From Actinomycetota bacterium (GTDB taxonomy: Bacteria; Actinomycetota; Actinomycetes; Actinomycetales; Microbacteriaceae): 59,443 nt of DNA. The notes under the pieces were generated by a model, which had not been told where the DNA came from, ran no database searches, and saw nothing but the letters and a program-made list of their open reading frames with translations. The DNA is taken from positions 1-59,443 of the forward strand of contig JAIUOH010000020.1 in NCBI GenBank assembly GCA_020161315.1, read 5' to 3'. Every line of letters begins with the position of its first letter. Position 1 is the stretch's first letter. Made by a program: the position numbers and the translations under genes. Below are positions 4,898 to 24,440 of this stretch, in pieces.

Positions 4898-5212
4898 TCA
4901 GCCCAGCTGACCGTGCTCGTAGCGGCGGGCATCGGCGTCGCCGTGGCTGCTGGTCGCAGCCACCGGCTCCGTGTGCGCCTTCCGCTCAGCGGCGGCAGCA
5001 CGGGCGAGCTTCGAGCGCTTCGCGCTCTCGTTCGCCAGCTCGGCGCGCGCTGCTGCTTCGAGCTGCGCGGCGATGTCAGCGTGATCCATGCGCAAGGCGA
5101 CAAGCACCTTCGCGTCGATCTTGCTCTGCTCGGCAGCGGCACGCTCGCGCAAGCGCTTCATGCGCTTGGCGTGGGCGGCCTTGGCCTGCTCGATCTCGTC
5201 CTGCATCGACAT
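4898..5212 (-). CDS. Small charged coiled-coil protein of the mobile element
   Basis: A 104-residue, Ala/Glu/Lys/Arg-rich protein (MSMQDEIEQAKAAHAKRMKRLRERAAAE...) predicted by eye to be almost entirely helical coiled coil, with a short polar tail. There is no signal peptide or membrane segment. It lies between rep and mobC in the same orientation, so an auxiliary role in mobilisation or replication control is possible. No family is recognised. ATG at 5212 is chosen; a weak GAAGAG lies upstream. Confidence 0.6.
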   Translation of the reverse strand: MSMQDEIEQAKAAHAKRMKRLRERAAAEQSKIDAKVLVALRMDHADIAAQLEAAARAELANESAKRSKLARAAAAERKAHTEPVAATSSHGDADARRYEHGQLG

Positions 5213-5294
5213 AGTGTTCTCTTCTCGTCGTTGTCGTCAGCTCGCACCCGGTCTGGGGCTCGCAGCCGCCACTCGCGGGCGACTCGGGTCTAGG

Positions 5295-8226: not shown

Positions 8227-8299
8227 GGGCGATTGGCGCAGTTGGTAGCGCGCTTCCTTCACACGGAAGAGGTCATCAGTTCGAGTCTGGTATCGCCCA
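8227..8299 (+). tRNA. tRNA-Val (CAC), target gene of the integrated element
   Basis: Acceptor GGGCGAT/ATCGCCC, D-arm GGCGCAGTTGGTAGCGC, anticodon loop TTCACAC with anticodon CAC, T-stem ATCAG/CTGGT, discriminator A. The 5' half is chromosomal. The 3' half from about 8256 is supplied by the element, and the displaced original 3' half is at 17680-17724. The two versions differ by a compensatory T-stem change (A-T here, G-C at attR), so the tRNA stays functional. Confidence 0.95.
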
Positions 8300-8300
8300 C
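8256..8300. repeat. attL of the tRNA-Val element
   Basis: 45 bp matching 17680-17724 with two mismatches (positions 8278 and 8288). The first 22 bp (8256-8277, anticodon loop to variable region) are identical to the other copy and are the likely crossover core. Confidence 0.9.
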
Positions 8301-8306
8301 AGCGAA

Positions 8307-8338
8307 GAACCCCTGGTCAGGCCAGGGGTTCTTCTTTT
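8307..8338 (+). terminator. Terminator after tRNA-Val(CAC)
   Basis: GAACCCCTGG/CCAGGGGTTC (loop TCAGG) is followed by TTCTTTTTC. It lies inside the element, which therefore supplies both the tRNA 3' half and a new terminator. Confidence 0.9.
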
Positions 8339-8374
8339 TCTGCTTGCAGGAGTGGCGCTGTTGGGTGGCCCAGA

Positions 8375-8395
8375 ATCACCCCAAAATCACCCCGA
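8375..8395. repeat. Inner direct repeat, left copy (candidate integrase arm site)
   Basis: A 21-bp sequence containing ATCACCCC and then AATCACCCC. It is repeated exactly at 17591-17611 in the same orientation. Each copy is about 70-75 bp inside its att core, as expected for arm-type binding sites of a tyrosine integrase. Confidence 0.75.
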
Positions 8396-8430
8396 GGCGC
8401 AGAAGAGGTCGCGCACGCTCGTAGGTGGGG

Positions 8431-9615
8431 CTACCGACTGAGGCCGCGCCCGCGCTCGAGCGTGCTGCTGTGCCCTGAGCCAGCGCCGAAGCTGTCGAGG
8501 TTCGGCAGCTTGCGGGCACGCTTGGCGAGGGTCTCGGAAGCGGACTTGTTGAGCACGTCCAGTGCAGCGCGGTCGGCGAAGTCGCCAAGGTGGTGCAGGT
8601 AGCGTGCAGTGATCTGAATGGAGCCATGCCCGAGCCACGCCTGAACAGTCGTCAAGGGCACGCCCCGAATCAGCCACTCGCACGCTGCGGTGTGGCGGAG
8701 GTCGTGAAGGCTACGCCCGCGCCCCAGGCTCTCCCAACTCGTCGCGCGCACGAACGAGGTGCGGTAGAGCTGTCCACCGCGAGGGCTGGTGAACAGCAGG
8801 TCGGTGGGCTGCTTGCCTGCGGCGGAGCGGCGGATTGTCGGCACGAGGTAGTCGGGAATGGGAACCTTGCGGCTCTTGCCGGACTTCGGCGCTTTGACCG
8901 GCGAACCCTCGGGCTGGTTCCGAATGACATGCAACATCGGCATAGGCGTCTCGGTGAAGCCGCGCACCTGCATCGCTCGCAGCTCGCCCCAGCGCAGGCC
9001 AGTGCGACCAAGAATGAGCACGAGGTCACTGTAGGTCGAGTCGAGTTCCGCGACCTGCCGCACGACCTCCTCGAACTCGGGCGCAGGCAATGGACGCATG
9101 TCCTCACGCGCCCGCCGGTCTTTCGGAGGCGGTGTGGCGATCACAGGGTTGTGCGAGATGTAGCCCTCAGCAACGCACCAGCTGAAGAACGATGAGAGCG
9201 AGGTTCGGTAGCGGGTTACCGTTGTTGCTACGAGGTCGCGTTTCAGCAGATCGTCCTGCCACTTCTGAATCGCACTGGGGGTCACTTTGACGGCGTGCAG
9301 CTTGCGAAACCAAGTAGGCAGCACCGGCTCGCGTTTGCTGGTGCTCGCGCGCTGCCCCTCAGTAGGAAGCAGGTAGCGATCGGTGTCTAGCGTCGTCTGG
9401 CTGACGCGCCCCTCGCGCTGTTCGAGCCATTGTCCGAGCAGCGTTTCGATCGAGACTTTGCCAGTGCTCGGGTTGTAGCCGTGCTCGTCAAGCGTTGTCC
9501 GTTGGCGTCGCTCCCACTCGACCGCGCTTCGTTTTGTGTCGAAGCGTCGAGTGCTCACGACCTTGCCCGCGATCTTGAGTCGCCCCTCCCACTTGTCACC
9601 GCGACGCACTGGCAT
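8431..9615 (-). CDS. int: Tyrosine recombinase (integrase) of the element
   Basis: A 394-residue site-specific recombinase. The N-terminal part is an Arm/SAM-like DNA-binding region (SIETLLGQWLEQ...). The catalytic domain carries GRTGLRWGEL (Arg about 208), a Lys-rich beta-hairpin (about 245-250), HDLRHTA (His304, Arg307), WLGHGS (His330) and nucleophile Tyr339 in ARYLHHL. All expected catalytic residues are present. The ATG at 9615 is preferred because AGAGGAG lies just upstream; the longer frame from 9666 runs into the excisionase gene. It overlaps the xis end by 20 bp, so the two are coupled. It should act on the 3' half of tRNA-Val(CAC). Confidence 0.95.
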   Translation of the reverse strand: MPVRRGDKWEGRLKIAGKVVSTRRFDTKRSAVEWERRQRTTLDEHGYNPSTGKVSIETLLGQWLEQREGRVSQTTLDTDRYLLPTEGQRASTSKREPVLPTWFRKLHAVKVTPSAIQKWQDDLLKRDLVATTVTRYRTSLSSFFSWCVAEGYISHNPVIATPPPKDRRAREDMRPLPAPEFEEVVRQVAELDSTYSDLVLILGRTGLRWGELRAMQVRGFTETPMPMLHVIRNQPEGSPVKAPKSGKSRKVPIPDYLVPTIRRSAAGKQPTDLLFTSPRGGQLYRTSFVRATSWESLGRGRSLHDLRHTAACEWLIRGVPLTTVQAWLGHGSIQITARYLHHLGDFADRAALDVLNKSASETLAKRARKLPNLDSFGAGSGHSSTLERGRGLSR

Positions 9616-9847
9616 GAGCTGCTCCTCTTCGCGGTGGACGATGCTGTGCGGTGGTTTTCGCGGCAAGCCATGCTTCTATGTCGTTCACGCGGTAACGCGG
9701 CACGCCCTCAGCGAGCCAGTAGACGGCTGGCCCCTCCCCGGACTGCCGCCAACGAACGAGCGTGGACTTGGATACCGACAGCCATGCGGCCACTTGATCG
9801 GTGCGCAGCAGACGATCGCCCGGAGGGGTTCCGATCAAGTCAGTCAT
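9596..9847 (-). CDS. xis: Excisionase-like HTH protein
   Basis: An 83-residue protein with a winged-helix core: LLRTDQVAAWLSVSKSTLVRWRQSGEGP...VPRYRVNDIEAWLA, the AlpA/excisionase HTH_17 pattern. It lies directly upstream of, and overlaps, the integrase gene, as in many actinobacterial tRNA-targeting elements. There it directs excision and may repress its own promoter. The palindrome at 9871-9900 upstream is a possible target. The C-terminal basic tail (HRPPRRGAAHASASR) overlaps the int start and may be unstructured. Confidence 0.85.
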   Translation of the reverse strand: MTDLIGTPPGDRLLRTDQVAAWLSVSKSTLVRWRQSGEGPAVYWLAEGVPRYRVNDIEAWLAAKTTAQHRPPRRGAAHASASR

Positions 9848-9870
9848 AGCGTTACCTCAAGTGTTGGCAG

Positions 9871-9900
9871 TTACGCCACTCTATCGCACACCTGGCGTAA
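9871..9900. promoter_or_regulatory. Inverted repeat in the xis / 9946-gene divergent region
   Basis: TTACGCCA (9871-9878) and TGGCGTAA (9893-9900) form an 8-bp perfect inverted repeat, 14 bp apart, between divergent genes. This is a good candidate operator for the excisionase or for the HTH protein encoded at 9946. Confidence 0.6.
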
Positions 9901-9945
9901 TGGCTAGTGCGTGAGATTGTTCTCAGCGTCCAGTAAGGTGGAACC

Positions 9946-10641
9946 ATGAGTCAAGACGTGGAGGATGTGCCGCTGCTGGTTCCCGAAGACCTGCCAGCCG
10001 GCTGGGTGATGCCCGACCCTCCCGTGATCGCATCCTCTGCCGAGTCGGTCGCCATTGATGCCGCACTCAAGTACGACAAGCTGATCTACCCCACGCCAGG
10101 GCCGGACGGAGAACTGAGCGGCTACAACGATGGCCGCGATGGGCGCTGGTTCCTCATCGAGCACGTCCAGTCCTACACCCGTGTGCTACTGCGGTTGCAA
10201 CGCCAGTACCTCATGCACCAAGAGCCGATGGGTGAGGTGCGGATCACCGGAATCATCTACCTGCCCGAGCAGGCCGGTGACCCGGTGGCAAGCCCCATGC
10301 TCCGAAACCTCCCCACGTCAAGGATTGAGGCGGCGATCAACCGCCGCCAGTTCACCGTCACCGGAGCCACCCGCTTCGAGGGCGGCACACTCACCATGCC
10401 CTCGGGCCGCACCCTCCAGTTCAGTGAAGTTTTGAAGCCGTTGGGGAACCCGAAGCGCACCCCCGACTTCTACGAAGTCGTCGCCCTCCAACACACCCGC
10501 CTCGTGGACGACGGCGAACCCAACCCCACCGCGCGCATGGCCGAAATCAGCCGGGTGCCGCTCTCGACCGCTCAGGGATGGGTCGCCCGCGCCCGCCGCA
10601 AAGGACTCCTCCCACCCGGACGCCGAGGACGCGCCGGATAG
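9946..10641 (+). CDS. Uncharacterised element protein with a C-terminal HTH-like segment
   Basis: A 231-residue protein. The N-terminal half has acidic and Pro-rich parts with no recognised fold. The last 40 residues (RMAEISRVPLSTAQGWVARARRKGLLPPGRRGRAG) look like a helix-turn-helix with the sTvxxWvxxAR(r)xGlL pattern found in many actinobacterial mobile-element proteins of unknown function. It has an AAGGTGG ribosome site 4 nt before ATG 9946. Divergent transcription from xis-int across a palindrome suggests it regulates the element. Confidence 0.7.
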   Translation: MSQDVEDVPLLVPEDLPAGWVMPDPPVIASSAESVAIDAALKYDKLIYPTPGPDGELSGYNDGRDGRWFLIEHVQSYTRVLLRLQRQYLMHQEPMGEVRITGIIYLPEQAGDPVASPMLRNLPTSRIEAAINRRQFTVTGATRFEGGTLTMPSGRTLQFSEVLKPLGNPKRTPDFYEVVALQHTRLVDDGEPNPTARMAEISRVPLSTAQGWVARARRKGLLPPGRRGRAG

Positions 10642-10659
10642 CCGGACGAGGCGCAGGGC

Positions 10660-11142
10660 ATGACTGATGTTCCCTTGAGGGGCGCAACGGCGGCAGACCG
10701 TGGGCTGCTCGCGCGGGCGACGCTCGACAACCTGAACTGGAACGGCCCACGCTTCACCATGAGCGAGGTCGAAGACACCCCGCAGTTTCGCCACTACTAC
10801 GACGGCTGGCCGACCGGCGGAGACTTCGGCCTTGTCGCAGAGGACGCCGCAGGGGTAGCGGTCGCGGCGGTCTGGCTCCACTACTTCACCGCAGACGACC
10901 CCGGCTACGGGTTCGTCGCGGAGACCACCCCGGAACTGAGCATCTGGGTCGATGCCGAGCATCGAGGCCAAGGCATCGGTGGACTGCTCCTGCGCGATGT
11001 GATCGAGGTGGCCCGATCCCGTGGCGTCACCGCTATCAGCATCTCGATCGAGGACGGCAACCCCGCCGCGAGGCTATACGCCCGGCACGGCTTCCGGCCC
11101 GCCCCGCACGGCGCACCGGGCTGCCTACTCATGGAACCCTGA
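10660..11142 (+). CDS. GNAT family N-acetyltransferase
   Basis: A 160-residue protein. The acetyl-CoA site is ELSIWVDAEHRGQGIGGLLLRDVIEVARSRG (V/I..EHRGQGIG, about residues 87-112), and NPAARLYARHGFRPAP is the usual GNAT C-terminal motif. The acceptor is unknown; an amine, a peptide terminus or an antibiotic is possible. It starts 19 bp after the preceding gene and probably shares its transcript. It is cargo rather than a transfer gene. Confidence 0.85.
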   Translation: MTDVPLRGATAADRGLLARATLDNLNWNGPRFTMSEVEDTPQFRHYYDGWPTGGDFGLVAEDAAGVAVAAVWLHYFTADDPGYGFVAETTPELSIWVDAEHRGQGIGGLLLRDVIEVARSRGVTAISISIEDGNPAARLYARHGFRPAPHGAPGCLLMEP

Positions 11143-11166
11143 CGCAAGCCTTCCGCCGCCTCGCGG

Positions 11167-11574
11167 TCAGTCAATGACGGCGGCAACCGCTTCGATCTCG
11201 ACCAACTGGTCGTCGTAGCCGAGCACGGTCACGCCCATCAATGTGCTCGGCACGTCGTGCTCCCCGAAGGCGTCGCGCACGACCTCCCACGCCGTGACAA
11301 GATCGCTCTGCGACGAGGATGCCACCAGTACCCGCGTGCTGATGACATCTTGGATCGTCGCACCGGAAGCAGTGAGCGCGCGCTTCATCGTCTCGATACA
11401 CGCGGCAGCTTGACCCGCGTAGTCACCGACAGCGACGGTGGCACCGCGTTCGTCCAACGGGCATGATCCGGCGAGGAAGATCAGTCGAGAGTCTTTCGGC
11501 GCTGTCGCCGCATACGCGTACTCGGCAACGTCTGAGAGGTCGGCGGCGCGGATCAACTGGACAGAACTCGGCAT
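11167..11574 (-). CDS. RidA family enamine/imine deaminase
   Basis: A 135-residue RidA/YjgF/UK114-type protein. The family fold is indicated by LIFLAGSCPLDERG, AACIETMKRALTASGATIQDVISTRVLVAS, with the substrate-carboxylate-binding Arg in STRV, and LVEIEAVAAV near the C-terminus with the conserved Glu. RidA proteins hydrolyse reactive 2-aminoacrylate and related imines made by PLP enzymes. It converges on the GNAT gene, with 24 bp between the stops. Its role on a mobile element is unclear, possibly metabolic stress relief. Confidence 0.85.
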   Translation of the reverse strand: MPSSVQLIRAADLSDVAEYAYAATAPKDSRLIFLAGSCPLDERGATVAVGDYAGQAAACIETMKRALTASGATIQDVISTRVLVASSSQSDLVTAWEVVRDAFGEHDVPSTLMGVTVLGYDDQLVEIEAVAAVID

Positions 11575-11816
11575 GCCTCCATTCTCTCAGGACGTCCGAC
11601 GCCGTCGCATCTGCGCCAACCGACCCCGCACCGCCGCCCCTCCGCCGCACACATCACCGCGTACGCCCAGCACACGACGCCGCTGCACCCCTCCCGCCAA
11701 CAGCCTGCCTATCTCCCGGCACCACCGGACTTCTCGCCTCTTTCTCAGCGAATGAACGTAATCTAAGTGCCGTAGTTGCTGATACACTAGATTATCAGTG
11801 AGGCAGACGCAGGGCG
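11575..11816. other. Leader of the relaxase gene with a short palindrome
   Basis: No gene is seen. CTGATA-N8-TATCAG (11779-11798) is an inverted repeat in an A/T-rich patch about 20 bp before the relaxase start, a possible operator. The element's oriT should lie near here; no convincing nic motif is recognised. Confidence 0.4.
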
Positions 11817-14800
11817 GTGGTCGAGATGCAGGGCGGCGTACTCCCGTTCCGGGGTACCGGGGCTGATGCGCTGCGCTATGTCGAGGCCGACCGTTCCCGC
11901 GCTGACGACTACTACCTCGGCAATGAGGCGACCGTCGCGCAGTTCGCCCAGCTCGACGGCACTGGCGAGGTGACCGTCGAGCTGGGTCTTGAACCGGCGG
12001 CGTATGCAGGGTGGGTGGACTGGACGCATCCGTTGACCGGGGAGCAGATGGGCAAGCCCCGGCGTGCGGGGTCGGATCGGCAGGCCTCGCCCCGATTCAT
12101 GGAAATGGTCATCAACACCCCCAAATCGTTGTCGATCGCCGCCGCCCTGCACCCCGAGGTGTCGGCGGCGTTGGACGCGGCCCAGCAGGACGCCCTCTCG
12201 GAGATTCGGCGCTGGCTCGCCCTCCACTCGGTGACTCGCGTTGGGTCGTTGGGGGCGCAGGAGGTCGTGCCCGTCGAGCAGATGCACGTCGTCGGGATCA
12301 CGCACCGCACCAGTCGGGCGGGTGATCCGCACCGGCATATTCATATGCAGATCGGGATGAGGGTGTGGGCGGCGGGCAAGTGGCGGGGGTTGAATGGTGC
12401 GGCGTTGTTCCGGCAGCAGGACGCGATCCGCGCCCTCGGTACTGCCGTGATCGCCGCCAGCCCGCAGCTCACCGACGTGCTCGACCGTCACGGCCTCACT
12501 CTCAACCCGGCAACCGGCGAAGTCACCGAGTTGCAGCCATTCAACACGGTGATGTCGAAGCGGGGTGTGCAGGTGCGCCGCAACCTCGACCGCCTCGAAG
12601 CCGAATGGCACGAGGCGCACCCCGGCGAGAGCATCGGCCCGGTCGTCGCCTCGCGCCTCAGGGCCGAGGCGTGGGCGTATCAGCGGCCCGCGAAGAAGCC
12701 CGCCACGCTCGCCGATGAGGCCGCATGGGTGACCGAGCTACGCGAGGCCGGATACGACCCCACCACCTTGCAACGCCCTGCGCCGCGCGCGTCAGTGTCG
12801 CTCGATGATCTGAGTGTGCAGGAGGTTGCGTCGCGCACGCTGGATCGGTGCGCCGCCGCCGCGTCCGCGTGGACGGCGCACACCGTGACCGAGCACGCGA
12901 CCCGGATCATGACCGAGTACGGCGTGCGCGCGACGCCTGCGGAGATACGCGACTTCATCACTGTCGTGTCGCGGCTGGCGTTGGAGGACTGCTTCACGAT
13001 CCTCCCACCCGACACGCCCCGACCGGAGTATGTGGCGCATTGGACGAGCGTGCGCGTCATGCAGGCCGAAACCGAACTCCGCGACCTCATCACCGCACAA
13101 GTGCCCGACGATGAGCCGCCGCTGCCGGACATGCAACAACTGGCGCAGGTCGCCGACCTCGACGCAGGCCAGACGGAGGCCGCCGCTGCCCTCGCCTCCA
13201 CCGACCCGCTCGTGATCGTTGAGGGTGCAGCAGGGAGCGGGAAGACAACGATGCTGGTGGCGGCTATCGAGGTCGCCGCGCAGCAGGGCAGGTTGTCGCG
13301 GGTGGTGACGCCGACGAAGAAGGCCGCTGATGTTGCGCAACACGAACTCGGCACCCCCACCGCATCCGTCGCAGCCCTCGTGCACGCGCACGGCTGGCGC
13401 TGGAACCGCGACGGCGTATGGACGCGCCTCACGCCCGGCGACACCGACCCCGAAACCGGGCGCACCTACACCGGAGTGCCGAAAGCCTCGCGGCTCGCAT
13501 CCGGTGAGCGGGTGATGGTGGACGAGGCCGGGATGCTCGACCAAGACACCGCAATCGCACTATTCACCGTCGCCGCCGAAGCGGGCGCAACGCTCGCGCT
13601 CGTCGGCGACCGGGCGCAACTCCCCGCAGTCGGCAGAGGCGGCGTGCTCGACATGGCCGCAGCCATTCGGGGTCGCACCATCGACATGTCCGAGGTGCAT
13701 CGCTTCACCGATCCCGCCTATGCGGAACTCTCGGTGCGGTTGCGCGACCGGGATGATCCGGGTGTGATCTTTGACCAGCTCGGATCGCTCGGCTTGATCC
13801 ACCTGCACACTGATGCGGAGAGTCTGCGCGAGCACATCGCCCAGCAGCGCGGCGATGGGGAGGCGGTCACGGTCGCCACCAACGACGAAGCCGCACGCCT
13901 GAACGAGCGCATCCGCGACCACCGCACCCACACCGGAGCCGTAGACGACGAGGCGACCGCGACGGGCAGCGACGGCCTTCCCATCGGTCGGGGCGACCTG
14001 ATCCAGACCCGGAAGAACGACACCACCCTTGGGGTGGCAAACCGGCAACTGTGGGTCGTGCAACACGTCGAGAGTGACGGCACCGTGTGGGCGGTCGAGG
14101 CAGGCAACAAGAGGAAGCGCGAGCACACCGTGCAACTGCCCGCGGCCTACGTCACCGAGCACACCCACCTCGCCTACGCCTCGACCGCCTACGGCGTGCA
14201 GGGCGTCACCGCGCCGGGATCGCACACGATTCTCTCCGACGCGATGAGTGGAGCCGCCGTGTACGTCGGAATGACCCGAGGCAAGCAAGAGAACCAGTTG
14301 CACATCATCGCCGAGAACACCGCCGACGCCCGAGCACAGCTCATCGACGCCGTAGAACGCGACCGGGCCGACCGAGGACTCACCCACGCCACACAGCAAG
14401 CAGCAGAGGCCGTGCGCGGGCTGGTCGACGACGGCCCCGTCAAGCGCGTTAACACTGAAATAGCCACCCTCACGGCGCAGGCCGAGCGAGCCGAGCACCG
14501 AGCGGCACAGTGGCGGCAGGCAGCCGACGCACTCACTGAACTGCACGCGCAGCAGCGTCACGAACGCGACAATGCACGCCAGGCCAGCGATGCCGCGACC
14601 CGGCAGCTTGAGCGGGTGCGCGGCGAGGTCGCCGCGCCGCTCACTGAGCAGGCATCGGCGGCGTTGACCGAGTGGCAGGCTGCCGACACCAAGCGGCAGA
14701 GTGCCCGCGACCGCCTGCGCGCGGTCGGCAGGTTCGGCAAGCGCCGCGCCACCAGAGAACACCACACCGCCCAGACCCTCACCCGTGACGCCGAGCAGCG

Positions 14801-15287
14801 ACTGACGAACGCTTGGGGCGAGCCGCCCCGCTGGAACGAGAACAGCGCCGCCTGGATCGAGCGCGCCACCAGGCCACGCATCGACGCCGACCCGCGCGTG
14901 ACCGAGGCCGCCGCACAGCAGGAGGCCGCAGCGACAGCGGTGCGCAAGACGCTTGAACCCGACGAGCTGCCGCGCCTGCGCGTCTACGCTCGCATCTTCG
15001 GCGCGGACACGGTGGTGAAGAACCGGGCGGCCTACCTTGACGCCCGACCACGCGCGAACGCCGAGAACCAGACCCGCACCGCGCGACACGCCCGCGCCGA
15101 AGTCGCGGTGCTACACGCGCTCACTCCCGCCGAGGCGGTCGAGCGGATCGAGCAGACCCGCGCCGCCGAGCAAGCCGCGCGCGAGGCCGCTGAACGTGCT
15201 CTTGCTGAGCGTCGTCGCCAACTCCACCACGAGCCGCACACACGCGACAGCACCCCGCACCATGACGGCCCGTCCCTGGGCTGGTGA
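11817..15287 (+). CDS. traA: MobF conjugative relaxase-helicase (TrwC/TraA type)
   Basis: A 1156-residue protein. The N-terminal TrwC relaxase domain has a DDYYLG segment (Tyr32/33, candidate nicking tyrosines), SPRFMEMVINTPKSLSIAAAL and GDPHRHIHMQI with the three metal-binding His (172, 174, 176). A RecD-like helicase follows, with Walker A EGAAGSGKTT (about 470-478) and Walker B VMVDEAG (about 566-572). The C-terminal 270 residues are charged coiled coil. It would nick oriT, stay covalently bound to the strand and drive unwinding. GTG at 11817 is given; ATG at 11826 is equally possible. No secretion genes accompany it, so the element is mobilizable rather than self-transmissible. Confidence 0.92.
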   Translation: MVEMQGGVLPFRGTGADALRYVEADRSRADDYYLGNEATVAQFAQLDGTGEVTVELGLEPAAYAGWVDWTHPLTGEQMGKPRRAGSDRQASPRFMEMVINTPKSLSIAAALHPEVSAALDAAQQDALSEIRRWLALHSVTRVGSLGAQEVVPVEQMHVVGITHRTSRAGDPHRHIHMQIGMRVWAAGKWRGLNGAALFRQQDAIRALGTAVIAASPQLTDVLDRHGLTLNPATGEVTELQPFNTVMSKRGVQVRRNLDRLEAEWHEAHPGESIGPVVASRLRAEAWAYQRPAKKPATLADEAAWVTELREAGYDPTTLQRPAPRASVSLDDLSVQEVASRTLDRCAAAASAWTAHTVTEHATRIMTEYGVRATPAEIRDFITVVSRLALEDCFTILPPDTPRPEYVAHWTSVRVMQAETELRDLITAQVPDDEPPLPDMQQLAQVADLDAGQTEAAAALASTDPLVIVEGAAGSGKTTMLVAAIEVAAQQGRLSRVVTPTKKAADVAQHELGTPTASVAALVHAHGWRWNRDGVWTRLTPGDTDPETGRTYTGVPKASRLASGERVMVDEAGMLDQDTAIALFTVAAEAGATLALVGDRAQLPAVGRGGVLDMAAAIRGRTIDMSEVHRFTDPAYAELSVRLRDRDDPGVIFDQLGSLGLIHLHTDAESLREHIAQQRGDGEAVTVATNDEAARLNERIRDHRTHTGAVDDEATATGSDGLPIGRGDLIQTRKNDTTLGVANRQLWVVQHVESDGTVWAVEAGNKRKREHTVQLPAAYVTEHTHLAYASTAYGVQGVTAPGSHTILSDAMSGAAVYVGMTRGKQENQLHIIAENTADARAQLIDAVERDRADRGLTHATQQAAEAVRGLVDDGPVKRVNTEIATLTAQAERAEHRAAQWRQAADALTELHAQQRHERDNARQASDAATRQLERVRGEVAAPLTEQASAALTEWQAADTKRQSARDRLRAVGRFGKRRATREHHTAQTLTRDAEQRLTNAWGEPPRWNENSAAWIERATRPRIDADPRVTEAAAQQEAAATAVRKTLEPDELPRLRVYARIFGADTVVKNRAAYLDARPRANAENQTRTARHARAEVAVLHALTPAEAVERIEQTRAAEQAAREAAERALAERRRQLHHEPHTRDSTPHHDGPSLGW

Positions 15288-15349
15288 CCACGCCAAAACC
15301 AAGTAGTCGGCCCAGTCGCCGGTGGCACGGCAGTGCAACCACTGGGGAA

Positions 15350-15871
15350 CTATCCAGCCTTTGGGGGAAGGCGAACCTCAAGCGCTTCGATGGCGGCGCG
15401 CGCTTCCTGCGCGTCGATGCCCTCAGCGATGGCTGCCAGGGCAGCCCGCCAGGCGGCGGCGAGCACTCGCCCAAGCACAGGAGAATATGTGGCCGAGCTG
15501 AGCACGTCAGCGAGGCGATCGCCGTCCGCTCCGGCCGGAGGTGCTCCCAGGATGCGTAGGAACCGCTCGCTGACTGCGAAGTCGAACCCGACCAGGAGAG
15601 CCGCCCGCACGGCGGTCGCGTGATCCGCCCCGCTGGCAGCGACCGCGCCTTCCATTCGATCCAGCAAGCGGCGCTCTACATCGGCTCGGACGAACTCGTA
15701 CAGCCCAAGCTTGCTGCCGAAGTGGTGATAGAGCGCACCAGTAGTCACTTCGGCCGCTGCCGACAGTTCGCCGACGGTGACCTCGTCAAAGGCGCGTGCT
15801 CCGAAGGCAGTCACCGCCGCGAGGACTAGTCGACCCTTCGGGGACGACGACACCGGAATCCACTCGCGCAT
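15350..15871 (-). CDS. TetR family transcriptional regulator
   Basis: A 173-residue protein. The N-terminal HTH runs RLVLAAVTAFGARAFDEVTVGELSAAAEVTTGALYHHFGSKLGLYEFV (about residues 13-57), a canonical TetR_N domain. The Ala-rich C-terminal ligand domain is short. It is transcribed away from the VOC gene, with a palindrome between them, so it most likely represses that gene and itself. The effector is unknown. Confidence 0.9.
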   Translation of the reverse strand: MREWIPVSSSPKGRLVLAAVTAFGARAFDEVTVGELSAAAEVTTGALYHHFGSKLGLYEFVRADVERRLLDRMEGAVAASGADHATAVRAALLVGFDFAVSERFLRILGAPPAGADGDRLADVLSSATYSPVLGRVLAAAWRAALAAIAEGIDAQEARAAIEALEVRLPPKAG

Positions 15872-15876
15872 GAAAC

Positions 15877-15891
15877 CATAATACTGTTATG
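15877..15891. promoter_or_regulatory. Candidate TetR operator
   Basis: CATAA-TACTG-TTATG is an inverted repeat within 6 bp of the TetR start codon and 39 bp before the VOC gene, in an A/T-rich divergent promoter region. Confidence 0.65.
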
Positions 15892-15929
15892 CTCAGAAAG
15901 AATCACGTTACGACACCGAAAGGCCAGCC

Positions 15930-16280
15930 ATGAAACTGGAGTTCCTGTTTATCCCGACCACCGACCTCAACGCCTCGCTCGCCCTCTACCGCGACGGGCT
16001 CGGTTTCACCGAGTTGTGGCGTGAGGGTGACGCCACCGTCGCGCTGACGCTGCCCGGGAGCGAGGTGCAGATCATGCTCGACGCGAATGACCCCGAGGCT
16101 CCTGCTGGCCCGATCTTCGTGGTCGAGAGCGTCGCCGACTTCCACGCGAAGCGGCCTGAGGCGCTGAGCGTAATCGAGGAGCCTGCCGACATCCCTGGTG
16201 GCGCTATGGCGACCTATCAGGAGCCGGGCGGTGCCGTTCTCTACCTCCTTGACCAGTCCACGGACGCCGAAGCGGGCTGA
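15930..16280 (+). CDS. VOC (glyoxalase/bleomycin-resistance/dioxygenase) family protein
   Basis: A 116-residue protein with a single vicinal-oxygen-chelate domain: LEFLFIPTTDLNASLALYRDGLGFTELWREGDATVALTLPG, then a second repeat ending TYQEPGGAVLYLLD with a late metal-type Glu position. The family includes glyoxalases, drug-binding resistance proteins and dioxygenases; the substrate here is unknown. A GAAAGG ribosome site precedes ATG 15930. Pairing with a divergent TetR regulator suggests an inducible detoxification or resistance function. Confidence 0.8.
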   Translation: MKLEFLFIPTTDLNASLALYRDGLGFTELWREGDATVALTLPGSEVQIMLDANDPEAPAGPIFVVESVADFHAKRPEALSVIEEPADIPGGAMATYQEPGGAVLYLLDQSTDAEAG

Positions 16281-16430
16281 ATGGCAACGTCTGCCTCTGC
16301 GAACGAGAGCGGCGTTGCCTGCGAGTCGGAATCCACAACAGGTTCGCGTACGTCCGTGGATGCCGAAGTCTGTCTTGTGCGCGAGGGGTCGAGGCATACC
16401 GCTTGATTCCCTCGCTGTCGGTTGACGCGA

Positions 16431-16520
16431 CTACCGCGTCTTCTCCCACACCGTGCCCCGGTGAATCCCGAGCTGACGAGTGGCCTCGGGGACAATCCGC
16501 AGCTTCTCTGGGAGAATAGA
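16431..16520 (-). pseudogene. Fragment of an HTH-containing protein
   Basis: The minus-strand frame ending at the stop at 16431-16433 reads RIVPEATRQLGIHRGTVWEK and then TR, a plausible helix-turn-helix C-terminus. No start or further homologous sequence is seen upstream, because the 16541 gene begins there. It is probably the decayed tail of a regulator. Confidence 0.3.
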
Positions 16521-16540
16521 GGCGACGAGAGGAGGCGGTC

Positions 16541-17032
16541 ATGGCGTTTCAGGGTGAGGTGCTGTCGATCGGCGCATTGCTTGAGCGCGCACAGGCCGCC
16601 CCACGCCACACGCCCGGCGCAGGCGTCGGCGTGCGCCATACGGCAGCGGGGAACGCTGCTCACGCGGCCGAGTTGCTGGCCTCTGGTGATACGCCAGAAG
16701 CGTGCTGGCGGTTCGGTGTACTCCAAACACTGGATGACTATGCTTCGACGCTTCGACGCGGAGGTGCGCAACTCGCTGCCGAGGTGTTCTCGACCGAACC
16801 TGCCCCAACGGGTTCGGTGCAGCTCGATGCCGCGTTCGCGGCGCTGGCAGACCACCTTGCGGAGTGCGACGGGTGGACGGCTCCGCTCTGGGCTGTTGAT
16901 CCCGCACGACACACTGAGGCGTGGTATCCGGCTGTGCCTGCAATCTTCCGTGAGGAAGCAGAACAGGACAGCCCGCGAGCGTTCCGTCAGCGCGGTATCT
17001 TCATCACCGACCGGTCACTGAGCCGAGCATGA
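16541..17032 (+). CDS. Uncharacterised partner protein of the nucleotidyltransferase cassette
   Basis: A 163-residue soluble, mostly helical protein with no signal peptide. The C-terminal segment (LWAVDPARHTEAWYPAVPAI..., then SPRAFRQRGIFITDRSLSRA) is its most distinctive part and resembles proteins found next to NTases in other actinobacteria (recalled, not searched). AGGAGG is correctly placed before ATG 16541. Its stop overlaps the start of the NTase gene (ATGA), so the two are translationally coupled. The order, a small helical protein followed by an MNT-like enzyme, is that of a toxin-antitoxin or defence pair. Which one is toxic cannot be told. Confidence 0.65.
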   Translation: MAFQGEVLSIGALLERAQAAPRHTPGAGVGVRHTAAGNAAHAAELLASGDTPEACWRFGVLQTLDDYASTLRRGGAQLAAEVFSTEPAPTGSVQLDAAFAALADHLAECDGWTAPLWAVDPARHTEAWYPAVPAIFREEAEQDSPRAFRQRGIFITDRSLSRA

Positions 17033-17586
17033 CGAGGATCGGCGGCGAACTCGGTGCGGAGGATGTTCGGGCACTGTTCCAAGAACTCTCTGACCACCTC
17101 GCCGCCAAGCAGGTGCACGCGCAGCTCTTCGTCGTGGGCGGGGCGGCAATGGCTCTCGCATATGACCGTGACCGCCTCACCCGCGACGTTGACGCGGTGC
17201 TTGTGCCTGCCCCGGAGGTGCGCGAAGCAGCCGAGGCAATCGCCGATGCACGCGGGCTGGAGCCGGACTGGCTCAACGACGCAGCGAAAGGATTTCTGCC
17301 CGGCCAGGACGAGCACCCTGAGACAGTGTTCGAATCGGACTGGTTACTTGTGCAGATCGCATCGCCCGGCTACATGCTTGCGATGAAGCTGCACGCCTCA
17401 CGCGACGAGACCGATCTGAACGACGCCACGACCCTGTTTACTCTGCTCGGGTACACCACCGCAGAGCAGGCAATCGAACTGTTGACGAGCACCTATCCGC
17501 TGGGGCAGCTCCTGCCGAGGCACCGCTACGTCGCCCAAGATATTGCCGAGCGCGCAGCCGCTCGCAGAGCCGAACAAGGCCTCTGA
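17029..17586 (+). CDS. Nucleotidyltransferase (DUF6036/MNT-like)
   Basis: A 185-residue protein. AQLFVVGGAAMALAYDRDRLTRDVDAVL (about residues 32-59) is the nucleotidyltransferase signature, with GG...RxTxDxD giving the metal-binding acidic pair (Asp at about 55 and 57). PGYMLAMKLHASRDETDLNDA is the second conserved block of DUF6036/AbiEii-like NTases. Such enzymes can transfer nucleotides to tRNA or to a protein partner in type IV or VII toxin-antitoxin systems. It is coupled to the preceding gene by a 4-bp overlap and is the last gene before the attR end, a frequent place for cargo defence genes. Confidence 0.8.
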   Translation: MTRIGGELGAEDVRALFQELSDHLAAKQVHAQLFVVGGAAMALAYDRDRLTRDVDAVLVPAPEVREAAEAIADARGLEPDWLNDAAKGFLPGQDEHPETVFESDWLLVQIASPGYMLAMKLHASRDETDLNDATTLFTLLGYTTAEQAIELLTSTYPLGQLLPRHRYVAQDIAERAAARRAEQGL

Positions 17587-17590
17587 ACCG

Positions 17591-17611
17591 ATCACCCCAA
17601 AATCACCCCGA
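17591..17611. repeat. Inner direct repeat, right copy (candidate integrase arm site)
   Basis: Exact 21-bp copy of 8375-8395, same orientation, 69 bp before attR. Between it and attR, ATTCAT/ATGAAT arms (17618-17623 and 17651-17656) form another inverted repeat, and GGGTCTC/GGGACACCC suggests a further small hairpin. Confidence 0.75.
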
Positions 17612-17679
17612 TAACGGATTCATGGGTCTCTGGGACACCCGTAGGCCCTTATGAATCAAGGGAAACCCGGTTTTGACCA

Positions 17680-17724
17680 CCTTCACACGGAAGAGGTCAT
17701 CGGTTCGAGTCCGGTATCGCCCAC
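17680..17724. repeat. attR: displaced 3' half of tRNA-Val(CAC)
   Basis: 45 bp corresponding to 8256-8300. It retains the original host T-stem (ATCGG/CCGGT) and acceptor 3' strand but has no tRNA 5' half, so it is not a functional gene. The original host terminator follows at once. Confidence 0.9.
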
Positions 17725-17730
17725 TAGAGA

Positions 17731-17756
17731 AAGACCCGGCTGCGGCCGGGTCTTTT
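17731..17756 (+). terminator. Original terminator of tRNA-Val(CAC)
   Basis: AAGACCCGGC (17731-17740) pairs with GCCGGGTCTT (17745-17754), followed by TT. Before integration it followed the tRNA; now it follows attR. Confidence 0.85.
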
Positions 17757-17817
17757 GCGTTTGAGCGGCGTGCTGGCGATCAGCCCCCACTCAGCGGGCT
17801 CGCGCGACAATTGCTTG

Positions 17818-18807
17818 GTGAGAGCGGTGAACGAGCGTAGCGCGCAGCTAGGCGATAGGCCCGCACAGCTTACAACGAGGTCTGGCACGCGCGACCGCGG
17901 AAGCCGACGTTCGAGCATCTCTCGGTGGCTGCTGCTCGCTGCACTCGCCCTTGTCGCGCTCATGCTGCTCGGCAATCTACCGGGAGCGTTCGGCACAGCT
18001 ATCGCCGTCGTGACGCCGTGGCTTGGCTTTGCGGTGTTGTTGCTCGCTCTCGCAGCGCTGCTCACGAGGCCTCGCACTATTTGGCTTGCCGCGTTACCTG
18101 CACTTGTCTGGGCGACCACAGTGTGGGGGTTTCTGCCGGCCCCAATGCAGAGCGACCCAAGCAGCGCCGATGGAGGCCTGCTGGTCGCAACCCAGAACGT
18201 GCAGGCTGGCTCGGGCACAGGTGAGCTGTCTGCGCAAACGCTCTCCGCAACTGGCGCCGAGGTGATCGCGTTCACCGAGATCGATGGCGACACAGGGTCG
18301 TCGATCGAGCAGACGCTGACCGAAAGCTACCCGAACGTCTCGCGGGTTGGCACCGTGGGGGTCTGGAGCAAGTACCCGATCTTGAGCGAAGAGCCGCTCG
18401 AGTTGGGGCTTGGCTGGAAGCGGGCGCTGCGCGTCGAGATCGATGCGCCAGCGGGGTCGGTGGCCATCTACGTGGTGCACGCCGCCTCGGTGCGACCTGG
18501 TGCGCAGGGCGAGCGGGACAGCATGCTGAGAGCACTCGGGGCAGAGATCGCAGCTGATCCGAGCCCACACGTCATCGCCATGGGCGATTTCAATGCGGCC
18601 TCGACAGACCCTGCACTCGATAGCGTGCGGGGCCAGCTCGCCGAGGCCCGATTCTCTGGCATCGGCCCGTCGTTCACCTGGCCGACTGCATTGCCGATCG
18701 TGCGCATCGACCATGTGTTTCAACGCGGCTTTACGCGGGCCTCGGCGCAGTCGATGCCGGCGGGAGGCAGCGATCACCTCGCGATCTTGGCTGCCCTACA
18801 GGGTTAA
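17818..18807 (+). CDS. Membrane-associated endonuclease/exonuclease/phosphatase family protein
   Basis: About 330 residues. Two or three hydrophobic helices near the N-terminus (LLLAALALVALMLL, then a longer pair) precede an EEP domain. ATQNVQAGSG is the N/Asn metal motif, TEIDGD the metal-binding Glu, VVHAASV and AMGDFNA the catalytic DxN, and GGSDHLAI the catalytic DH. This fits DNase I/sphingomyelinase-like phosphodiesterases facing outward. The frame is open from TTG 17755, but that codon lies inside the terminator; GTG 17818 or 17827 is more plausible. The substrate is unknown. The end overlaps the convergent GNAT gene by 12 bp. Confidence 0.8.
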   Translation: MRAVNERSAQLGDRPAQLTTRSGTRDRGSRRSSISRWLLLAALALVALMLLGNLPGAFGTAIAVVTPWLGFAVLLLALAALLTRPRTIWLAALPALVWATTVWGFLPAPMQSDPSSADGGLLVATQNVQAGSGTGELSAQTLSATGAEVIAFTEIDGDTGSSIEQTLTESYPNVSRVGTVGVWSKYPILSEEPLELGLGWKRALRVEIDAPAGSVAIYVVHAASVRPGAQGERDSMLRALGAEIAADPSPHVIAMGDFNAASTDPALDSVRGQLAEARFSGIGPSFTWPTALPIVRIDHVFQRGFTRASAQSMPAGGSDHLAILAALQG

Positions 18808-19284
18808 CCCGTAGCGCTGCATCGGGTATCCGGCTATCGGGTGCGGGCTTGGATCGCCCATCGCCACGAACCCTGCCCGCTCGTACAACTCGATCGCCCG
18901 GCTGTTTACGTCTCTCACCTCGAGCTCTAGAGCCGCATAGCCCTGCTCTCTGGAGTGATGAATCGCATCAGCGAGTAGTGCGCGACCGACACCGCCACCG
19001 ACCCCATCAGGGTCGACAGCAACAAAGTGTAGGTACGCCACGGTCGGGGCATCATTCACTGTCTCGACTAGCGCAAACCCCAGGCGAGGGGCCGTGGCAA
19101 CGCTAAAGCGCACTGACGGGATCGCCAGTGACTTTCGTACCCATTCCGCCATCGCCTGTTCATCAACCGAGCCGTCGCGCGCCGCAAGTGCACGCACCCA
19201 AATGTTTGCGCAGAGGTTGGCATCTTCAGGCACAACGCCGGTTCGAATGGTCACGGGTGGGGGAGTCGCATTGCTTTTCGTCAC
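18796..19284 (-). CDS. GNAT family N-acetyltransferase
   Basis: A 162-residue protein. The acetyl-CoA site is AVDPDGVGGGVGRALLADAIHHSREQGY (about residues 90-116), and NSRAIELYERAGFVAMG is the standard C-terminal GNAT motif. The acceptor is unknown. It is convergent with the EEP gene and divergent from the membrane protein gene at 19356. It is a stand-alone gene with ordinary chromosomal codon use. Confidence 0.88.
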   Translation of the reverse strand: MTKSNATPPPVTIRTGVVPEDANLCANIWVRALAARDGSVDEQAMAEWVRKSLAIPSVRFSVATAPRLGFALVETVNDAPTVAYLHFVAVDPDGVGGGVGRALLADAIHHSREQGYAALELEVRDVNSRAIELYERAGFVAMGDPSPHPIAGYPMQRYGLTL

Positions 19285-19355
19285 GGTTCAAGTATTGTGC
19301 ACGCACGCGCCTAGGTGCGCTCGTGTTTACCCACGGTTCAGATAGGCTCTCAGCT

Positions 19356-20303
19356 ATGGTGTGGGGCTGGGTGCAACGAGTCGTGGGCTCGCTGCTCGTG
19401 TCTCCCTCGAAACTGGCCGACATGCCGGCGCTTGCCGCTCACTCGCTCTCGCCAGAGCACGTCTGTGACGCAGCGGGCGTACAGCGCCTGGCTGAGCTTG
19501 GCCCGCACAACGCACTCGTCGTATCGGTTGACGATGTGGTGAGCCCAGCCGCTCGGGCGCGCACCCTGTGGCATGCGCTTGAGGGTGGCGTGGTGATCCT
19601 CTTCGTTGAAGCCGTGAACACGGCTGAGGGGTTGCGCCTGACCAACGAATTGCGCGGGATCGCCGTGCGCCTCGACGAACCGCCCGAAACTGGGCAGCGT
19701 GCGCTCTACGGGGTAAATGTGACGGCACTGCTGCGGGCAACGCTCGCGGGCCCGGAACAGGGACACTTAGAAGATGCGCTTCGCGGTATGCCCGCCCATC
19801 GCACACCCCGCAAGGCGCTTGCGCTGCTGCCCGAATCAATGCTGGTGCAGCGAACGAACTGGGTGCAGCGCACGCTGCGACACCCCAGCATGCCCGTCTA
19901 CCTGATCGTGTTCATCTATTCGTCGCTACGAGTGCTGCCTGTCGCGCTTATCCGTGAGTTTCACGGCAGCCTTCTCGTGCTCTGGGCGATCGACATAATC
20001 ACCGCCGTGCCCTATACCTGGGGTGTGCTCGCGATGTTGTTTGCGCCAAAGCGACGCATACGCCTGCTGGCCGCGCTGACTACGCTGGTGACATTTGTGG
20101 GGCCGTACGTCTACTTCTGGATGCACGGAAGGGGCTACCCGCCCTACGTGCCGATTGTGATCGTGGCGCTCACACTCGGCAGCGTGCTGCTCGAAGCGAA
20201 CCGCTACCGGCAAGAGCAGCAGTTACGCAGGCGCTACCGCTCGGTGTCTGCCGCTCCCGCCAAGACGGTTTCGTCGGCCGAGACAGCCGCAGAAGCTCGC
20301 TGA
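19356..20303 (+). CDS. Uncharacterised integral membrane protein
   Basis: 315 residues. The N-terminal half is a soluble domain (about residues 1-170) with no recognised motif. Then four hydrophobic helices follow (VYLIVFIYSSLRVLPVALI, LLVLWAIDIITAVPYTWGVL, LLAALTTLVTFVGPYVYFW, VPIVIVALTLGSVLL), then a basic tail. ATG 19356 is chosen because upstream in-frame codons run antisense through the GNAT gene. The last 70 bp overlap the convergent phosphatidylcholine synthase-like gene, an unusually long tail-to-tail overlap. Confidence 0.7.
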   Translation: MVWGWVQRVVGSLLVSPSKLADMPALAAHSLSPEHVCDAAGVQRLAELGPHNALVVSVDDVVSPAARARTLWHALEGGVVILFVEAVNTAEGLRLTNELRGIAVRLDEPPETGQRALYGVNVTALLRATLAGPEQGHLEDALRGMPAHRTPRKALALLPESMLVQRTNWVQRTLRHPSMPVYLIVFIYSSLRVLPVALIREFHGSLLVLWAIDIITAVPYTWGVLAMLFAPKRRIRLLAALTTLVTFVGPYVYFWMHGRGYPPYVPIVIVALTLGSVLLEANRYRQEQQLRRRYRSVSAAPAKTVSSAETAAEAR

Positions 20304-21007
20304 GACCGTTTTGCGGTGACGGTGCGAATGAGACCGAGCACCACGATCCAGAGCCCTGAGACGATCCAGATGATAAATGCCCAGTGCACCTGCACCGGGT
20401 AGTAGACCACAAGCACGCCAGACGATACGACCCAAGCGAGGGTCGCGATTACGTTGAGCGCCATAAACCTCTTGACGCGGAACGGGTGCACAAAGGTAAT
20501 CGGCGCCCAGGTGAGCACAGAGAAGAAGACCACGATGATCGCGTTGACGAGTGTGTTTGGCTGGGCGAGCCAGAGTGCGAGGGCGACAATGTTCCATGTC
20601 GCGGGAAAGCCCATGAAGTAGTAGTCATCGGTCTTCATCTTCGTGTTCGCGTAGCAGAACATCGAGGTGACATTGATGAGCACGAGAAGCACGACCGCAA
20701 GCGTGCCCTCGCCGAGCAGCCCTGCCCGATACATGAAGAGCGCCGGAATGAACGTCCAGGTCAGATAGTCGACCACGCAGTCGAGGATCACCCCGTCAAA
20801 GTTCGGGGCGTACTTTTTGACGTCTGCGCGTCGGGCGAGCGAACCATCGACCCCGTCGACGACGAGGGCTATGCCGAGGTAGAGCCACATCAGCTTGTGC
20901 TGGTCTGCGAAGAGGGCGAGCATTGCGAGCGTTGCCCAGATCACTCCGGTGAGCGTGAATGCGTGTACTGACCAGGCGGCGACGACGCGAGTGCGGTGAG
21001 AGGTCAT
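20234..21007 (-). CDS. pcs: CDP-alcohol phosphatidyltransferase, phosphatidylcholine synthase-like
   Basis: A 257-residue integral membrane enzyme. VDGVDGSLARRADVKKYAPN and then FDGVILDCVVDY (about residues 45-76) give the CDP-alcohol motif DGxDGxxAR(x)nFDGxxLDxxxD. The spacing and the PALFMYRAG context are those of phosphatidylcholine synthase (Pcs), which condenses CDP-diacylglycerol with choline. Seven to eight hydrophobic helices follow. A phosphatidylinositol or glycerophosphate synthase is the alternative, but those are shorter and lack the FDGxxLDxxxDY context. ATG 21007 or GTG 21013 may be the start. It sits just upstream of, and divergent from, thrS. Confidence 0.78.
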   Translation of the reverse strand: MTSHRTRVVAAWSVHAFTLTGVIWATLAMLALFADQHKLMWLYLGIALVVDGVDGSLARRADVKKYAPNFDGVILDCVVDYLTWTFIPALFMYRAGLLGEGTLAVVLLVLINVTSMFCYANTKMKTDDYYFMGFPATWNIVALALWLAQPNTLVNAIIVVFFSVLTWAPITFVHPFRVKRFMALNVIATLAWVVSSGVLVVYYPVQVHWAFIIWIVSGLWIVVLGLIRTVTAKRSQRASAAVSADETVLAGAADTER

Positions 21008-21080
21008 AATCACACGACTCTAGTCGAAGAGCCACACCCGCTAGGATTAGTGGGTCTATTTAGCTCGAAGGAGTCGAACC

Positions 21081-23063: not shown

Positions 23064-23623
23064 ACGGGGCGCACGCTGAAACGCTCGCCGAAAGCGGGCT
23101 GGTCGGCGACCCCGATGACATGCAGCGCCTGTGGACGCCGCATCGCATGGTGTACATCGCTGACACGCATCAGCCAGATGAGCATGACTGCCCGTTCTGC
23201 CATGCGCCATCGCTAGACGACGAGCAGGCGCTCATCGTGTACCGAGGCGAGACTTGCTACGCCCTGCTGAACCTCTACCCGTACAACAACGGGCACCTAT
23301 TGGTGTGCCCGTACCGCCACATCTCGACCTATGACGAGGCGACGCCAGAAGAGGTTGCCGAGATCGGTGCGATTACGCAGACCGCAATGCGCGTGCTGAA
23401 AGAGGCGATGGGTTGCCACGGTTTCAACATCGGCATGAACCAGGGCGAAATCGCAGGGGCGGGCATTGCCGCACACCTGCACCAGCACATCGTGCCGAGG
23501 TGGCGTGCGGACGCCAACTTCTTCCCGATCATCGCGAAGACCAAGGCCCTGCCGCAGCTGCTTGGCGATGTTCGCGAGAGGATCGCGGCCGCGTGGCCCG
23601 TGGACCCAGGACCAAGGCGCTAG
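23051..23623 (+). CDS. HIT domain protein, Ap4A hydrolase/phosphorylase-like
   Basis: A 190-residue protein. CPFCHA (about residues 46-51) supplies zinc-type Cys residues, [17 protein letters not shown] is the HIT-family middle, and [10 protein letters not shown] (about 141-150) is the HxHxHxx catalytic triad. Actinobacterial members next to thrS hydrolyse diadenosine polyphosphates or related adenylates. The GTG start lies inside the 3' end of thrS (13-bp overlap), suggesting coupling to the synthetase that can produce Ap4A. Confidence 0.88.
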
Positions 23624-23675
23624 CGAATCTCAATAGACTTTTCATAACGACTGAACTTACGAAAGAGGAGCTCCC

Positions 23676-24440
23676 GTGTCCGGACACTCCAAGTGGGCAA
23701 CCACGAAGCACAAGAAGGCCATTATCGATTCGCGTCGCGCGAAGGCTTTCGCCAAGTACATCAAGGTGATTGAGGTCGCTGCGCGCATTGGTGGCGCCGA
23801 CCTCGAGGGCAACCCGGCGCTCGCCGATGCCGTGCACAAGGCAAAGAAGCAGTCGGTTCCCGGCGACAACATTGACCGCGCCATCAAGCGCGGCGCGGGT
23901 ATCTCGGGTGAGGTCGTCGAGTACACGACGATCATGTACGAAGCGTACGGCCCGAACGGCGTGGCGCTCATGATCGAGTGTCTGACCGATAACAAGAACC
24001 GTGCCGCCGCCGAGGTGCGCACCGCGCTCAGCCGTAACGGTGGCAACCTCGGCGAGCAGGGCAGTGTCGCGTACAACTTCGAGCGCAAGGGTGTCATCAC
24101 CGTGCCCGCCGAGGGCACGACCGAAGACGATGTGCTGATGGCCGTGCTCGACGCGGGTGCCGAAGAGGTCAACCCGACGCCGAACGGCGAGGCATTCGAG
24201 GTGCTGACCGAGGCCACCGATCTGGTTGCAGTGCGCACCGCGCTCGTTGAGGCCGGCATCGACTACGAGTCGGCCGACGCCGAGTTCGTGCCAAACCTGA
24301 AGGTTGAGATCGATGCAGACACCGCGCGCAAGGTGTTTCGCCTGATCGATGCACTCGAAGACAGCGACGATGTGCAGAACGTCTTCTCGAACTTCGATCT
24401 CACCGCTGAGGTGCAGGCCGAGCTCGAGAGCGACGACTAG
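23676..24440 (+). CDS. yebC: YebC/PmpR family transcription/translation regulator
   Basis: 254 residues, full length for the family. [30 protein letters not shown] is the invariant N-terminus, followed by [36 protein letters not shown] and the [28 protein letters not shown] block. YebC proteins bind DNA as regulators and, from recent work, help ribosomes through difficult proline stretches. The gene stands directly upstream of ruvC, its usual genomic place. GTG 23676 has AGGAG at the correct distance. Confidence 0.95.

Follow-up and report, generated by a model that had tools for sequence, protein, structure and literature searches.

What lies between the two copies of a tRNA-Val(CAC) tail on a Microbacteriaceae contig, and which of the two tails belongs to the host? 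The window analysed here is the whole 59,443-bp contig JAIUOH010000020.1 of the Actinomycetota bacterium assembly GCA_020161315.1, that is, contig 8 of a host assembly of 3.01 Mb in 74 contigs (99.26% complete, 5.29% contamination). The 9.4 kb between the tails is, we conclude with good confidence, an integrative and mobilizable element (IME) that recombined at the anticodon loop of the tRNA gene and left the host's 3′ half behind at its right end, attR. The following features mark its two ends:

8227-8300, forward strand: tRNA-Val(CAC) target gene (ARAGORN and Rfam), its 5′ part from the host
8256-8300, forward strand: attL core, 45 bp, T-stem pair 52-62 = A-U
8258-8264, forward strand: anticodon loop TTCACAC, putative 7-bp crossover region at attL
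8304-8339, forward strand: terminator-like hairpin directly 3′ of the tRNA, read by eye from the sequence
17680-17724, forward strand: attR core, the displaced tRNA 3′ fragment, T-stem pair 52-62 = G-C
17727-17760, forward strand: terminator-like hairpin after attR, read from the sequence

As a first-pass annotation of the window had claimed, direct repeats of 45 bp, with two mismatches, bound the element at 8256-8300 and 17680-17724. The left copy coincides with the 3′ portion of a tRNA-Val(CAC) that both ARAGORN and Rfam recognize as complete; searching the assembly at DNA level (E 0.001) gave no second tRNA-Val(CAC) and no third att copy. The idea of a larger island bounded by such a third copy was rejected, there being none in the window either, where the other tail-like match is tRNA-Val(GAC). 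The G+C content is 66.3% in the element versus 63.9% in the rest of the contig. Together the two mismatches form a single T-stem pair, 52-62 (tRNA positions numbered by hand), with A8278/T8288 on the left and G17702/C17712 on the right. This compensatory difference, described in the annotation as a tRNA-repair signature, is present, but we reject its interpretation as a special repair device: intact genes of the genus have A-U at this pair in 40 of the 51 genomes read and G-C in 11 (two of the 53 other genus genomes gave no readable gene), so the swap is natural allele variation.

The gene order between the repeats is integrase, excisionase, 231-aa protein, GNAT, RidA, MobF, TetR, VOC, 163-aa protein and nucleotidyltransferase. 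Integration and mobilization involve the following features:

8375-8395, forward strand: left arm-site pair, two ATCACCCC 11 bp apart, an exact 21-bp repeat
8431-9666, reverse strand: tyrosine integrase, 411 aa, open frame with Pfam Phage_integrase over the curated cut-off and motifs
9596-9847, reverse strand: excisionase-like helix-turn-helix (HTH) protein (Xis), overlapping the integrase gene, Pfam HTH_17 over the curated cut-off
11750-11779, forward strand: conserved non-coding block upstream of mobF, candidate origin of transfer (oriT) or control region
11817-15287, forward strand: MobF (TrwC-type) relaxase with SF1-type helicase, 1156 aa, open frame
17591-17611, forward strand: right arm-site pair, an exact 21-bp repeat
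17653-17670, forward strand: GAATCA-GGGAA type block between the right arm and the core, found by eye

Family assignments use the curated cut-offs of Pfam and NCBIfam. The overlapping integrase and excisionase and the full relaxase-helicase of the first-pass annotation are all open frames with family matches, and the inner 21-bp repeat is exact. Xis also has an NCBIfam 'excise' match below its cut-off, and its homolog adjoins the integrase in seven relatives. The relaxase scores 116.6 bits against NCBIfam MobF (cut-off 100) and exceeds the curated cut-off of Pfam TrwC; it has no solved-structure match at E 0.001. Active integrases and relaxases are recognized by characteristic motifs, and those expected of active enzymes are present in both window proteins. 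The absence of secretion genes was likewise borne out, as no secretion-system family scores over cut-off among the ten element proteins (Pfam, NCBIfam); the relaxase gives two sub-threshold ATPase matches, T2SSE and DotB. Specific-site integration with direct repeats, an integrase of its own in an open frame, its own relaxase and no coupling or channel genes form the combination that characterizes a canonical IME.

An autonomous integrative and conjugative element (ICE), with transfer genes that escaped detection or are located in another place, is very improbable. An ICE would bring its own type IV secretion or a TraB-type pump, which the element proteins lack; with no secretion gene between the repeats, the gene content disfavours it, and the assembly has no AAA_10 (VirB4-type) match at E 0.001. 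The host genome does encode a VirD4/TraG-type coupling protein, but on another contig, contig 24, beside other recombinases. That region (G000 contig 24, ~20601-27748, L153; G and L numbers are our labels for genomes and loci) contains a serine recombinase, the coupling protein and a tyrosine integrase, and is likely another mobile element of the same assembly. FtsK-type matches are found on other contigs of the host assembly.

The search of related genomes for the same integrase and att core, which the annotation had proposed, returned ten other elements with integrases at 65-79%. A scan of species genomes gave 11 integrase loci, nine at 65-79% (best segment; two of these, L049 and L050, are partial) and two distant, at 34% and 23%; the ten elements are these nine loci and G174, whose integrase is at 71%. 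Outside these counts stand L048 (34%, tRNA-Arg), L051 (23%), L098 (a copy of L045) and L107 (a copy of L042). With targets assigned by the tRNA position next to the integrase end, tRNA-Val(CAC) is used in the window, Compostimonas, a metagenome-assembled genome (MAG; G084), Microbacterium sp. 18062, Humibacter, Lumbricidophila, M. schleiferi and G174; tRNA-Val(GAC) in Leucobacter sp. Ag1; and tRNA-Pro(CGG) in Actinotalea K2 and a Bifidobacteriaceae MAG. Of the 54 genus genomes, five contain a match to the integrase at E 1e-30, and the only close matches are the window's own copy and G016 (68%); in an even draw across the family, 5 of 398 genomes match at E 1e-110, own copy included. A plasmid or phage origin of the integrase was rejected, as no plasmid and no phage record matched it at E 1e-30, and the five stretches matched in a pattern scan of viral contigs included no relative. 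The distant L048, from Actinomyces oris, has a tRNA-Arg tail repeated from the anticodon loop onward (5210-5254 and 11191-11235) without an arm pair.

Empty tRNA-Val(CAC) sites, which the annotation had named as a check, were found in two genera. Among 12 aligned stretches of the host genus, four are empty sites, in which 93-101 bp separate the tRNA from the thrS block. The thrS block lies beyond the tRNA in ten of the stretches: apart from these four, the interval is ~0.3 kb in two and ~1 kb, 1.3 kb, 3.3 kb and 12.6 kb (G047) in one each. The last two are G033, with no thrS block in the stretch, and G032, which is inverted with a run of N. In Humibacter, where G229 has the element, G276 and G109 (two of four congeners) have empty sites, with the left flank continuing into the tRNA; the right flank of the G229 attR resumes unbroken in G109 and after a gap in G276 (~55 bp in G276, 105 bp in G229). 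G177 has the same flanks as G229 with ~2.5 kb between them. In the window the tRNA-thrS interval is the element plus a further 3.3 kb, 17725-21035, which encodes Exo_endo_phos, GNAT and CDP-OH_P_transf proteins and a 391-aa frame without a match. This stretch is absent in genomes with a 0.1-kb tRNA-thrS gap, is common to G032 from 18770 onward, and is perhaps an older insertion. More copies of the tRNA-Val(CAC) tail lie downstream of the tRNA in three genomes without a match to the window integrase: at 12.7 kb in G015 (L078), ~41 kb in G001 (L079/L080) and ~46 kb in G037 (L097). The gene appears to be a hot spot for islands of several types.

Where did the crossover fall? Repeat identity starts at the anticodon loop, or 2 bp before it, in all seven complete elements, i.e., the relatives with both ends found, window counted. 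The repeats bound an element in each of the seven and are not merely common tRNA sequence. The spacing of the arm sites points to the same place: in 7/7 right ends, one of them that of a tRNA-Pro element, exactly 72 bp separate the end of the right arm pair from the anticodon loop. The crossover therefore likely lies in the anticodon loop, as judged from these alignments. The longest word common to both ends of the window element (~250 bp per end) is 21 observed versus 13 in 1000 mononucleotide shuffles. Over the seven right ends the consensus of the arm pair is [A/C]TCACCC[C/G]-NNN-ATCACCCC, a perfect ATCACCCC pair occurring on the right side in the window only; the left pair was seen in 9 of 11 left ends, the exceptions being L042 and L050, which have none within the first 120 bp. 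Because the 72-bp spacing holds even with a different tRNA, arm recognition appears to have been kept while the target changed. The GAATCA-GGGAA type block has similar counterparts in 6/7 right ends (window counted), Actinotalea being the exception, and may be a site for Xis or a host factor.

If the crossover is in the loop, the tail at attL should be the element's and the tail at attR the host's, and the clearest case is Humibacter. In G229 the two tails differ at four positions; the attR tail occurs in three of four congeners and another tail in the fourth, and the attL tail occurs in none. A sister element in another genus, G174, whose integrase is at 89% to that of G229, has the same attL tail. 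Since that tail is absent from all four congeners and common to the sister element, it most likely travels with the element. For the window, the thrS comparison over 11 genomes places G032 nearest (89.7%) and G022 next (82.9%); G032 has the attR type of T arm and G022 the attL type, which fits a G-C host and an A-U element and rests on one draft genome, G032. The annotation's claim that the element brings its own 3′ half and terminator is thus supported by the Humibacter polarity, and for the window itself through this one near relative. The part of tRNA-Val(CAC) at 8227-8300 from the anticodon loop onward is most likely element-borne, as probably is the hairpin at 8304-8339; similar hairpins follow attL in most of ten other left ends, by eye. 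The hairpin at 17727-17760 would then most likely be the host's original terminator.

Several observations weigh against this interpretation: (i) Exactly the attL type of T arm is found in intact genes of 34 of the 51 genus genomes, and the polarity read from the window alone could therefore be reversed. (ii) Over a 144-bp stretch at the tRNA, G035 (92%, A-U) is ahead of G032 (89%). (iii) The genome of G032 is a draft in which the site adjoins a run of N and an inverted tRNA segment; we did not rely on the inversion, which has the run of N at its edge. (iv) L042 and L050 are 98.8% identical over 5.95 kb, and their attL tails differ. In L042 (11244-11551 and 3926-3968) the attL is a complete foreign-type tRNA-Val(CAC) whose tail fits its foreign-type 5′ half; some 185 bp further upstream there is a native-type 5′ half, which is broken, and the opposite end of the island bears a native-type tail. 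The one L042 congener read has the usual tRNA type. (v) In the other 53 genomes of the genus, no integrase copy above 50% identity turned up in tRNA-Val(CAC). (vi) The data are sequences alone, and a circular form, a nick and transfer are not among the observations.

Points (i) and (iv) suit a different account of the same element, namely that the crossover was at the 3′ end of the tRNA gene, that the tRNA at 8227-8300 is all host and that the G-C fragment at attR belongs to the element. The attL-type T arm is, after all, the commonest intact allele of the genus, and L042 and L050, taken alone, would favour this account as their simplest reading. It is nevertheless unlikely, because no congener of the Humibacter strain has its attL tail, which does recur in the sister element from a different genus; because the start of repeat identity and the spacing of the arms are both keyed to the anticodon loop in 7/7 elements; and because G032 has the attR type of T arm. 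Both L042 and L050 lack the left arm pair, which suggests that they may be rearranged; on that ground L042 was not used to place the crossover, and it is counted here as counter-evidence. L042 is a MAG contig, and island-borne DNA may have taken the place of its entire tRNA.

Points (v) and (vi) bear on whether the element still moves. A former IME that is now stranded, maintained because of its cargo or tRNA tail, would share its origin with the IME that we favour, and we regard this as possible but doubtful. It would account for a single copy in the genus sample and for the missing circular form, and relatives do show decay: G174 has a stop codon within int and no right end in ~57 kb beyond the left core, in L049 int is reduced to its last quarter, and the Actinotalea attR has lost 4 bp. 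The window element, on the other hand, has both att cores and both arm pairs, and its int, xis and mobF genes are open frames.

The anatomy of the element, its family, the empty sites and the swap of tails in a relative are read from DNA, and from them we infer the crossover point, an oriT, excision and transfer. For an active IME the cycle might run as follows. The integrase would bind the ATCACCCC-type arm-site pairs that flank the core in the circular form and recombine that core with the 7-bp anticodon loop of tRNA-Val(CAC). The crossover would place the 3′ half and terminator of the element behind the host 5′ half, preserving a working tRNA, and the host 3′ half would stay behind at attR. 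Xis would assist the reverse reaction, excision. The relaxase would nick oriT, perhaps in the block at 11750-11779, and the nicked strand would exit through the secretion channel of another element. Recent mobility and the hijacking of a helper, both named in the first-pass annotation, are likewise inferences. The block is present in the window and in 4/4 related mobF elements searched and is not recognisable by eye in the aligned upstream region of a plasmid relative; it is perhaps an oriT or a control region.

Is this element one of a kind? The Compostimonas, Humibacter and Actinotalea elements each contain the 231-aa protein and mobF as well, and the same genes appear with a different recombinase in G047. 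There a serine recombinase (L138 1708-3558), a 616-aa frame with Resolvase, Recombinase and zinc-ribbon domains, follows tRNA-Val(CAC); the antisense strand of the tRNA tail supplies the final 13 codons and the stop of this frame. Further on come the 231-aa protein (90%) and mobF (85%). A second end was looked for and not found, and the recombinase and the MobF genes would form one element. The MobF module thus accompanies either of two unrelated recombinases at a single tRNA gene. In G020 (L033) and G007 (L018) the first 40 bp after tRNA-Val(CAC) resemble the flank of the G047 serine recombinase, and these genomes may also hold an element of that type. On balance, we lean slightly towards a family of actinobacterial MobF IMEs that spans genera, whose arm recognition has been frozen while the core target moved among three tRNAs, and whose MobF module is shared with a serine-integrase element in the same tRNA-Val(CAC).

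The rest of the element encodes conserved and cargo proteins:

9946-10641, forward strand: conserved 231-aa protein with a suspected C-terminal HTH (PHROG HTH at E 0.002)
10660-11142, forward strand: GNAT acetyltransferase, cargo (Pfam match)
11167-11574, reverse strand: RidA/Rid family protein, cargo (Ribonuc_L-PSP; NCBIfam matches below cut-off)
15350-15871, reverse strand: TetR-family regulator, cargo (Pfam match)
15930-16280, forward strand: glyoxalase/VOC-fold protein, cargo, divergent from TetR (Pfam match)
16541-17032, forward strand: 163-aa protein, open frame with a 4-nt overlap with the next gene
17029-17586, forward strand: AbiEii/DUF6036-like nucleotidyltransferase (family match)

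Neither the 231-aa nor the 163-aa protein has a Pfam match. Homologs of the former occur in five other elements (52-91%). Those of the latter lie near the right end in L049 and L110, and its gene is also in the Humibacter element; paired with the nucleotidyltransferase gene it recurs near the right end of L049, and the two could possibly act as a toxin-antitoxin (TA)-like stability pair.

How does the element compare with known systems? Its integration logic is textbook, and we did not find a MobF lineage of actinobacterial IMEs in print; among the literature matches listed, no title or abstract opening describes this element or an actinobacterial MobF IME. Sublocations within tRNA genes were reportedly treated by Williams in 2002. 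In the part of the Islander paper available to us, 3760 islands with a 3′ tDNA fragment are tabulated, and 2083 with anticodon-centred sites (PMC4383910). These islands share with the window a tRNA plus a displaced 3′ fragment, an anticodon-centred class and the same integration logic, and because thousands of them are on record there, the tRNA-repair signature is ordinary (PMC4383910).

Among plasmids, 75 records matched the relaxase at all and three did so nearly full-length, at ~57% over nearly the whole relaxase; these are the MobF relaxases of Rhodococcus/Microbacterium plasmids such as pLW1. Unlike the window element they are plasmid-borne, and around two of the three the relaxase is the only one of the element's genes found. 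A Leucobacter paper, in the portion accessible to us, notes MOBF relaxases on three contigs (PMC6868719). The accessible part of a report on Mesorhizobium, later than the review discussed below, describes MOBF IMEs that, like the present element, have a MobF relaxase, are integrated at tRNA and other genes and lack a channel; unlike it, they are alphaproteobacterial and most carry a traACD locus (PMC8627217). None of the ten element proteins of the window matches TraC or TraD (Pfam, NCBIfam).

The value of the family lies in one arm-site code at a fixed spacing with three tRNA targets, so that the integrases can be compared residue by residue for core specificity, and in the same mobilization genes standing beside a tyrosine or a serine integrase at one tRNA. 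If true, it is a natural series on how tyrosine integrases change target. The nearest formal comparison is with the canonical IMEs of a 2017 review, which, in the sections we could access, use MobP, MobQ, MobV or MobC and none MobF, and include a single canonical IME found in Actinobacteria, with ATE-1 (MobV) named there (PMC5704250). As far as those sections go, the window element resembles canonical IMEs in its own integrase, a tRNA target kept whole, its own relaxase and the lack of coupling and channel genes, and differs from them in having MobF (PMC5704250); with it, the actinobacterial IMEs would gain a MobF lineage.

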